Source of the DNA: an uncultured Pelagibacteraceae bacterium
Lineage (GTDB): Bacteria > Pseudomonadota > Alphaproteobacteria > Pelagibacterales > Pelagibacteraceae
Assembly: GCA_902625125.1 (NCBI GenBank)
Contig: CACOAB010000005.1
Location: 1-59,446 of the forward strand
Length of the DNA stretch: 59,446 nucleotides
Direction of reading: 5' to 3'
In this document: positions 11,905-14,724 of the stretch, one piece after another
Numbering within the stretch: position 1 is the first letter of the stretch
How the letters are laid out: the number at the start of each line of letters is the position of its first letter
Position numbers and translations under genes: made by a program
Notes under the pieces: generated by a model
Database searches by the model: none
Seen by the model: only the letters and a program-made list of their open reading frames with translations
What the model was told of the DNA's origin: nothing

Positions 11905-13725
11905 ATGGAAAAAAACTTATATATCGATGCATCGCATCCAAATGAAACTCGTATTGTTCTTAAATCAAATAATTCAATTGAGGAGTATGAGTATGAAGAC
12001 AAAAATAATTTAAATTTTAAAAATAATATTTACCTTGCTACAGTAAGTAGAGTTGAACCGTCTTTGCAAGCTGCATTTATAAATTTTGGAAGAGAACGTC
12101 ACGGTTTTTTAGCTTTTAACGATATTCAGTCAGACTATTATCAGTTACCTTCAGAGGATAAAGAAAAAATAAGAATAGCTGAAGAAAAAATTCGTGAAGA
12201 ATTAAAAGATAAAACAATCGAAGTAAACCAGGATAATTTACAATCGGATGATAACTCGAATACAAAAGATGAAAAAAATATTAGTACTGAAAATCATGCT
12301 GAAAAGGAAAATAAAAAAGAGTATCGTGAAAAAGTAAAATCTTCATTTGGTATAAAAAGATATAAAATTCAAGAAGTTATTAAACCTGGTCAAGTAATCT
12401 TGATACAAGTAATTAAAGAAGAAAGAGGACAAAAAGGTGCTGCACTAACTACATTCATTTCTTTAGCTGGTAAATATATGGTATTAATGCCAAATACACC
12501 AAAAGGTGGAGGCATATCTAGAAAAATTTTCAACTCTTCTGATCGTCAAAAAATAAGAAATATTCTTAATGATATAGAAATACCCAATAGTATGGGTGTA
12601 ATTGTAAGAACAGCAGGAGCAAATAAAACAAAAAATGAAATTGAAAAAGATTTTCAAAATACTTTGAAAACTTGGGAAGAGATTAAGGAAAAAGCTTTAA
12701 ATTCTAACGCACCGTCTTTAGTTTATGAAGAGGGAGATATAATAAAAAGATCTTTAAGAGATGCGTATGATAACGATACAAAAAATGTTTATATCGAAGG
12801 AAACGAAGCTTATCAAAAGGCAAAAAAATTTATGAAAGAGCTAATGCCTAAAAATGTGAAAAACGTAAAAAAATATCGAGGTAAAATTCCTCTTTTTTTT
12901 GATGCTAATATTGAGAAGGAGTTAAACAATATTTATGAACCCACAGTAAAACTTAAATCTGGTGGATACTTGGTAATCAATCCAACAGAAGCATTAGTTT
13001 CAATAGATATAAACTCAGGTCAATCTACAAAACAAATAAACATAGAAAAAACAGCTTTAAATACTAATCTTGAAGCTGCCGAAGAAATAGCTCGTCAAAT
13101 AAAATTAAGAGATTTATCTGGTCTAATTGTAATTGATTTTATTGATATGATGAATTTTTATAACAGACGTATTGTTGAAAAAAAAATGAGAGAGAGCATC
13201 AGGAAAGACAGGGCTAGAATACAAACTGGTAGAATTAGTAGTTTTGGTTTGCTTGAAATGACAAGACAAAGATTGCGTGAAGGTTCAATTAAGTGGGAAA
13301 CACAACTATCACTTTCATCTTTTTCTCAAAAAATTCTAAAAAAAATTCAACACTTGGCTTTTACTGATAAAGTAAAGATTATAAACTCTTATGTTCCAGA
13401 AAAAGTAAAAGTATATATAGAGAAAAATTTACTTGAGGAGTTGAAATATTTTCAAAAAAAATACTCATTTGAAGTTAAAATACTATCAAATGATAAGTTT
13501 ATAGTTCCTGAATATAAAATTGATCTATTAAATAAATCGAAAAAAGTGATCAACACTATCGAAAACATAAATCCGATTATCGAAATTAAAAGTAATAAAG
13601 GAATTAAGATTAAAGAAAAAAAAGAAAAAAATAAAATTACTACTAAAGAAAAAACTAAAAAAACAAAATCAATAAAAAGAAAAGCAAGGACTCTTTGGGT
13701 AAGAAAAAAAAGAAAAGTTAAATAA
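11905..13725 (+). CDS. rne: Ribonuclease E/G catalytic protein lacking the zinc-link
   Basis: This 606-residue RNase E/G has an S1 domain interrupted at about residues 85-150 by a charged insert, as in other alphaproteobacteria. The 5'-sensor residues are present (VIVRTAGA), and so are the catalytic carboxylates (D368 in DINSG; D411/D414 in DFIDM). After [10 protein letters not shown] (about 452) the chain goes straight to [12 protein letters not shown]. The Cys-Pro-x-Cys-x-Gly-x-Gly zinc-link that normally joins the tetramer is absent. The C-terminal scaffold is reduced to a short Lys-rich tail. It is the main mRNA-processing nuclease. An SD-like AAGGAA lies 10 bases upstream of the ATG. Confidence 0.92.
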
Positions 13726-14491
13726 GTCCTCTTATTGGTGAGCTTGCTGAAGCAAAATAATTTTTATTCATTCTTCCAGCTAGAAAAGAACTTCTTCCAG
13801 AAATAACTGCATCTTTGAAAGCTTTAGCCATCAAAATTGGTTTTTTGGCATTGGCTATGGCACTATTTATTAATACACCATCACAACCTAATTCCATTGC
13901 TATCGTAGCATCTGAAGCAGTTCCAATGCCTGCATCAACTATTACTGGTACTTTAGATTGCTTAATTATTAAAGATATGTTCACTTTATTTTGAATTCCA
14001 AGACCGGAACCAATAGGAGATGCTAAAGGCATAATTGCAGAAGCTCCGTTATCTTCTAATTTTTTTGCTAACAATGGGTCATCTGTACAATAAACCATGA
14101 CTTTAAATCCCTCTTTGGTTAAGATCTTGGTAGATTTAATAGTTTCAATCATGTTTGGGTAAAGAGTTTTTTTATCACCTAAAACTTCTAATTTAACTAG
14201 TTTCCAGCCTCCCATTTCTCTTGCTAGTCTTAAAGTTCTTAAGGCATCATCAGAATTAAAACAACCGGCAGTATTAGGTAAAAAAGTTATTTTTTTTGGG
14301 TTTATGTAATCTGTTAATATTGGTTTTTTTTTATCTAAAATATTTACTCTTCTAACAGCTACCGTCACCATATCAGCACCTGAGGCTTTAACAGCTTTAG
14401 CCGTTTCCAAAAAGTTTTTATATTTACCTGTTCCAACTATAAGTCTAGAATTAAGAGTTTTTCCTGCAACTTTAAAAATATCTTTTTTCAA
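13718..14491 (-). CDS. thiG: Thiazole synthase ThiG
   Basis: ThiG makes the thiazole phosphate of thiamine from deoxyxylulose phosphate, a glycine/tyrosine-derived imine and ThiS thiocarboxylate. Recognisable blocks are [27 protein letters not shown] (Schiff-base lysine region), [10 protein letters not shown] and [14 protein letters not shown] chose the TTG at 14491, which gives 257 residues starting [11 protein letters not shown]. It follows GGAGG by 8 bases and leaves a 1-base gap after thiS. An in-frame TTG at 14506 would extend 5 residues into thiS with no ribosome site. The 3' end overlaps rne by 8 bases. Confidence 0.93.
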
Positions 14492-14492
14492 T

Positions 14493-14696
14493 TTATCCAC
14501 CTCCAATAAATGTAACGACTTCTACTTTATCATTATTTTTTAAAAGTTTTTTTTTATAATTTACTTTAGGAATTATTATTCCATTATGCTCGATCGCAAC
14601 TTTTTTATTAGATAGTTTGTACTTTTTTAAAAGATCAAATATTGAATACTTTGGTTTGATAACTACTTTTTTTCCATTTAATTGTATTTTTGCCAT
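14493..14696 (-). CDS. thiS: Sulfur carrier protein ThiS
   Basis: This ubiquitin-like sulfur carrier has 67 residues from the ATG at 14696 ([10 protein letters not shown]). The longer reading from 14711 adds MNNLI, which is not seen in the family. It ends in FIGGG, and the C-terminal Gly-Gly is thiocarboxylated by ThiF. The last codons (GGA GGT GGA TAA) also hold the thiG ribosome binding site. It is divergent from aroQ with only 28 bases between start codons. No TPP riboswitch fits in that space. Confidence 0.9.
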
Positions 14697-14724
14697 AATT
14701 AAGTTATTCAATACTTAGAAATTT

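Follow-up and report, generated by a model that had tools for sequence, protein, structure and literature searches.

The 3′ end of thiS in a SAR11 genome raises the question of whether the codons for the terminal glycines of a sulfur carrier protein also serve as the ribosome binding site of thiG, the gene that follows, and whether this second use is kept by selection. The window analysed here, a stretch of 59,446 nucleotides, is part of a 748,449-base draft genome. One genome hardly suffices to test a claim of a dual-coding Shine–Dalgarno (SD) sequence. At this junction, selection on silent sites for initiation can be viewed directly, because the protein is fixed, only the wobble bases vary, and about 300 junctions with repeated changes can be compared.

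The thiS–thiG junction and the start of thiG

On the minus strand, positions 14507-14493 of the window read ATT GGA GGT GGA TAA, the 3′ end of thiS. The parts of the junction are as follows:

14493..14696, minus strand: thiS, sulfur carrier protein; starts at ATG 14696 and ends Ile-Gly-Gly-Gly-stop
14500..14504, minus strand: GGAGG, made of the third-last glycine codon GGA and the GG of the penultimate glycine codon GGT
14498..14504, minus strand: GGAGGTG, in agreement with the SD consensus over 7 nt; requires GGA at codon -3 and GGT at codon -2
14492..14499, minus strand: spacer TGGATAAA of 8 nt, containing the remaining glycine codon bases and the thiS stop TAA (14495-14493)
13718..14491, minus strand: thiG, thiazole synthase; starts at TTG 14491-14489, one base after the thiS stop

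In profile searches, ThiS scored 68.3 bits against TIGR01683 (curated cut-off 37.45) and also matched PF02597; the protein ends GGG-stop and thus carries the C-terminal Gly-Gly of the family. A longer thiS start is possible at TTG 14711. ThiG is a full-length member of PF05690, with 352.7 bits against a threshold of 23 over profile positions 2-247 of 247. The essential glycines of ThiS are the last two, and the C-terminus is Gly-Gly-Gly. The initial annotation had placed a GGAGG 8 nt before a TTG start of thiG at 14491, and this is borne out on the minus strand (GGAGG 14504-14500, TTG 14491-14489). Its further statement that the glycine codons of thiS double as this motif holds for the third-last codon and the initial GG of the penultimate codon; as GGAGG consists of these bases, the last glycine codon lies outside it.

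An SD sequence was defined as at least 4-5 complementary nucleotides 5-10 nt before the start, a description that GGAGG(TG) with its 8-nt spacer fits. The match was scored against the general SD consensus; the 3′ part of the 16S rRNA of this genome is masked as N. The pair has the short stop-start distance of a translationally coupled pair, with 1 nt from the thiS stop to the thiG start in the window. This distance lies between -1 and +6 in 301/303 scored thiS–thiG junctions, and thiG starts one base after the thiS stop in 63/96 junctions of the host's own genus.

Downstream, thiG converges with an RNase E/G gene, and the 3′ ends of the two overlap by 8 bases (13718-13725). Upstream of thiS, a class II dehydroquinase gene (aroQ) starts divergently. 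Just 28 bases (14697-14724) separate the ATG of thiS (14696) from that of the dehydroquinase gene (14725). Unless transcription is driven from promoters within the adjacent genes, this gap forces either an overlap of promoters and leaders or transcripts with almost no leader.

The initial annotation also took the thiG start to be fixed just after the thiS stop, and warned that a longest-frame or ATG/GTG-only call would begin inside thiS. The warning is right, as TTG 14506 and GTG 14500 are in frame within thiS. The start at TTG 14491 is supported independently of the SD argument, because 89/158 TTG/GTG junctions have no other ATG, GTG or TTG upstream in frame before a stop, and because some relatives from the own genus carry ATG at the position of the window's TTG. 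It is supported rather than fixed, GTG 14500 and TTG 14506 being formally possible starts of thiG in the window. Across SAR11, TTG is the thiG start right after the thiS stop in 133/301 junctions; longest-frame calls can thus err for thiG in this group, which is of use for annotation. At one locus of the genus group g3 (L043; tail GGAGGAGGG), thiG has ACG where its relatives carry ATG or TTG. No usual in-frame start lies within the stretch scanned, and either a non-standard start or a sequencing error is possible.

How unusual the motif is

Since every glycine codon begins with GG, a GGAGG is cheap at this place and takes a single wobble base, that of a GGA at the third-last glycine. GGA makes up 42% of all glycine codons in the own genome (4135/9878) and 35% of internal glycine codons that precede another glycine (256/737). 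With the background already at 35%, the window's single case is weak evidence when taken alone.

It had also been stated that most genes of the window lack an SD sequence, and home-made gene calls agree: AGGAG or GGAGG lies 5-18 nt upstream of 0/52 window genes (thiG being scored from its longer start), and four-base SD cores precede 5/52 genes against 2.3 expected from shuffles. A first, small profile of the own genome, whose 176 ATG genes showed no excess of SD cores over control (12 vs 13), was repeated on more sequence. Among 523 genes called in 590,831 bases, AGGAG or GGAGG precedes 12 genes vs 5 at control distance and four-base cores 57 vs 36, weakly above, though these rates are rough because the gene starts come from a simple home-made caller. 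In the same 590,831 bases, thiS is the only gene called that ends in Gly-Gly.

A general bias toward GGAGG at thiS–thiG junctions, as the initial annotation had expected, was not found. In a first survey of the order, thiS was present in 92/147 genomes and thiG followed directly in 92/92, with no lone thiS among these for contrast. The third-last codon was GGA in 1/11 own-genus junctions, 47/73 of g3 and 4/8 others. The bias apparent in g3 does not extend to the own genus, where GGA stands at 31/96 in the enlarged sample and the site ranks 20 of 22 conserved glycine sites of the same two genes. Over all ATG-start junctions, the third-last codon is GGA in 41/138, near the 35% background. Within g3, the weak-start junctions reach 33/38, first of the 22 conserved glycine sites and with the fewest changes; the ATG-start junctions still show 13/33.

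These figures bear on the reading that the motif has no function, a common GGA happening to stand before a forced GG while termination-reinitiation serves thiG with no part played by SD pairing. The GGA background, the 31/96 of the own genus and the weak SD use in this genome all fit it, as does the nearest relative among those compared (thiG 84% identical in DNA), which has a TTG start without GGAGG. It leaves unexplained the link to the thiG start codon set out below, which recurs in two junction sets and four spacing classes and stands above 98 control sites; an absence of function is therefore regarded as unlikely. With regard to RNA structure, the motif is paired in the fold of the RNA around the junction, which counts against an SD function; a special hairpin over it was considered and rejected, because the fold is no more stable than those of shuffled sequences (z -0.34). 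A search for riboswitches and other known RNAs gave no Rfam match at gathering score within the window.

Tail GGAGG and the thiG start codon

Two sets of junctions were compared. The first comprised 96 junctions of the own genus and 73 of g3 (169, of which 166 were scored). There are 97 own-genus genomes with thiS; G497, G454, G500 and G502 were not taken, nor was a second copy in G514. The second set, for which 23 best-scoring new loci and 20 hand-picked, non-random stretches were read from g3 (thiS found in 208/260 genomes), drew on 171 loci from other genera, more of g3 and named genomes; 8 of these had already been in the first survey, though outside the first test. Four loci without a Gly-Gly-Gly-stop tail (L370, L375, L379, L382) and 29 near-duplicates were dropped, leaving 138 distinct junctions, some of whose named-genome loci may share a species with other loci beyond the near-identity filter. 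A start was assigned in 137 of them, and 135 were scored after two junctions from outside the group were removed. The start class was set by the first ATG, GTG, TTG or CTG at offset -1 or later, and L030, which has two adjacent starts, was left out together with the junctions without a start. The final count covers 301/307 junctions. The two outsiders, L365 (Sphingomonas) and L373 (a Marinimicrobia bin), are absent from this count and still included in the 307-junction trees, the Pagel tests and the spacing-class analysis.

Across SAR11, GGAGG is present in the tail of thiS more often when thiG has a weak start codon than when it has ATG, and the motif thus behaves like a working SD sequence. 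Over all 301 junctions it is found in 132/163 with a weak start (TTG, GTG or CTG) vs 66/138 with ATG, and the 7-nt form GGAGGTG in 54/163 vs 14/138. The first set alone gave 76/102 weak-start vs 24/64 ATG junctions, and the link was present in the own genus (43/64 vs 9/31) as well as in g3 (33/38 vs 15/33). In the second set, tail GGAGG occurred in 57/62 weak-start vs 42/75 ATG junctions (n=137), or 56/61 vs 42/74 once the two outsiders were removed (n=135); the corresponding counts for a third-last GGA were 49/62 vs 22/75 and 48/61 vs 22/74. The contrast was clear in genus groups g6 (10/10 weak vs 8/18 ATG) and g3 (17/19 vs 13/23), had the same direction without significance in the named genomes (19/22 vs 16/26, p 0.10), and was not seen in g2, g4 and g5. 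The link runs in the same direction in four classes of stop-start spacing, with a Mantel-Haenszel odds ratio of 7.5. The motif is not needed for a weak start, since 21/64 weak-start junctions of the own genus are without any GGAGG.

The last glycine codon provides an internal control, because GGAGG cannot be completed there before the stop. GGA at this codon showed no link to start class, either over the 301 junctions (44/163 weak, 46/138 ATG) or in the second set alone (p 0.35).

A GGT followed by G creates an in-frame GTG when thiG lies at +1, and this false start could compete with the TTG. It has to be asked whether GGA is simply what is left over when such starts are avoided. A third-last GGT is indeed rarer with weak starts (35/163 vs 72/138 with ATG). 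The link holds with equal strength in the frames that exclude such a GTG (GGA in 55/77 weak vs 37/113 ATG), and on this ground the explanation fails. Moreover, GGA is also preferred over GGC and GGG together (106:22 weak vs 41:25 ATG, p 0.002), and at +1 a penultimate GGT, which gives the same type of GTG, is not avoided (37/81 weak vs 8/23 ATG). Avoidance of false starts is thus very improbable as the source of the pattern.

Shared descent can produce such a correlation as well, if GGA and a weak start came together by chance in a small number of old clades. In the pooled first set, tail GGAGG had a lower Fisher p than 101/101 control traits, and the third-last GGA alone did not beat all of them. 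When the genera were taken singly, a handful of unrelated wobble sites matched the low Fisher p of the tail trait, a sign that shared descent exerts its influence. In the tree-aware Pagel test on the first set, tail GGAGG came top among 102 traits (LR 17.3), the penultimate GGA fourth (LR 12.0) and the third-last GGA alone 11th (LR 8.1). The tree of the full set held all 307 junctions and was built from ThiS and ThiG alone, without the tail codons. Here, the third-last GGA (LR 21.5, p 0.0003) and tail GGAGG (LR 18.1, p 0.001; both with 4 degrees of freedom) take the top two places among 102 wobble traits. The highest LR is 13.95 among the 98 control wobble sites and 8.6 among the 20 glycine controls. 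The penultimate GGA falls to LR 8.7, and GGA at the last glycine codon gives LR 2.95.

Several observations leave room for a relic of the tree. Large clades of one combination are contained in g3, some control sites reach LR 14, and sign tests on independent pairs found only a few such pairs on supported branches. Many branches of these trees, which come from ThiS and ThiG alone, are weak (8/93 inner branches are starred in the own-genus tree). On the other side, the best tree requires at least 64 changes of the tail motif and at least 45 of the start, counts that weak branches may inflate. The two tail traits exceed 98/98 controls that share the same tree, and the link is present separately inside the own genus, g3 and g6. 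Descent as the whole explanation is accordingly considered improbable, somewhat more so than an absence of function.

Taken together, the comparison of junctions suggests that the GGAGG in the ThiS glycine codons is a selected SD sequence that supports a weak thiG start, a reading given a probability of roughly 0.68. The dual use of the glycine codons is probably real and selected where the thiG start is weak.

Proposed mechanism, relation to known systems and meaning

In the mechanism proposed, thiS and thiG would act as a closely spaced pair, 1 nt from stop to start, in which the choice of third bases in the ThiS glycine codons creates the SD sequence of thiG and leaves the ThiS protein unchanged. 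Under a weak thiG start (TTG, GTG or CTG), lineages that retain the tail GGAGG would be favoured, and under ATG the same wobble bases would remain near background. In the window, GGAGGTG most likely recruits or holds a ribosome at TTG 14491, be it one arriving from the end of thiS or a newly bound one. The steps would comprise pairing with the 16S rRNA, a higher yield of ThiG and coupling to the translation of thiS.

SD motifs within an upstream gene and the compensation of weak starts by SD sequences are of an already known kind. In Huber et al. 2019 (PMC6728339), SD motifs at the 3′ end of the upstream gene are put at “above or around 50%” of overlapping gene pairs in 20/24 prokaryote groups, and their removal from E. 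coli pairs had effects that ranged from none to complete. Models of translational coupling, including termination-reinitiation, are set out in a 2025 review (PMC12548453). The thiS–thiG junction resembles the pairs described by Huber et al. in that the SD is part of the coding sequence of the first gene and closely precedes the start of the second. It differs in that the thiS stop and the thiG start are 1 nt apart instead of overlapping, and in that the motif falls within three glycine codons which are invariant and leave only wobble bases free to vary; coupling of this pair would be a prediction. Belinky, Rogozin and Koonin 2017 (PMC5622118) report that non-AUG starts accompany stronger SD sequences. 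In alphaproteobacteria, however, they saw no significant effect of the start codon on conservation of the SD region, and their data did not settle which of the coupled changes, in start or SD, came first. The junction follows the rule stated there, a weaker start with a stronger SD; as distinct from that work, one junction is here traced through 301 loci of SAR11 and set against synonymous control sites from thiS and thiG themselves. A literature search on SAR11 or Pelagibacter SD sequences and thiS–thiG, at the level of titles and abstract openings and with thiS confusable with “this”, found no report of the junction. This instance and its clean comparison may thus be new.

Outside SAR11, ThiS runs in frame into ThiG without a stop in 20/30 best-scoring loci, whereas SAR11 has two genes. 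In the remaining loci, thiG is near without such a fusion (7/30) or is absent from the locus stretch (3/30). The fusions of these other alphaproteobacteria likewise have the Gly-Gly-Gly of ThiS right before ThiG. In the 20 fused loci among L108-L137, it is internal and followed by a linker and ThiG, and the sequence does not show how a carrier fused in this way would acquire a free C-terminal glycine. Among the genomes listed, both ThiS and ThiG were matched in 92/94 of family f1, and in its sister family f2 ThiS was matched in 0/18, with partial and weak matches to ThiG. These profile matches suggest that the two families differ as a whole in how they make thiazole.

The rates fitted in the Pagel model bear on how motif and start change together. 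Loss of the tail motif proceeds at 0.08 under a weak start vs 0.33 otherwise, and a weak start arises at 0.18 with the motif present vs 0.02 when it is absent. In SAR11, where SD sequences appear sparse, the three glycine codons of ThiS may constitute an evolvable dial for the yield of ThiG, in which weak starts mostly arise on tails that already carry GGAGG and then protect it; the odds for this wider proposal are put at about even. If it is true, the silent third bases of an invariant peptide would be under selection as a ribosome binding site.
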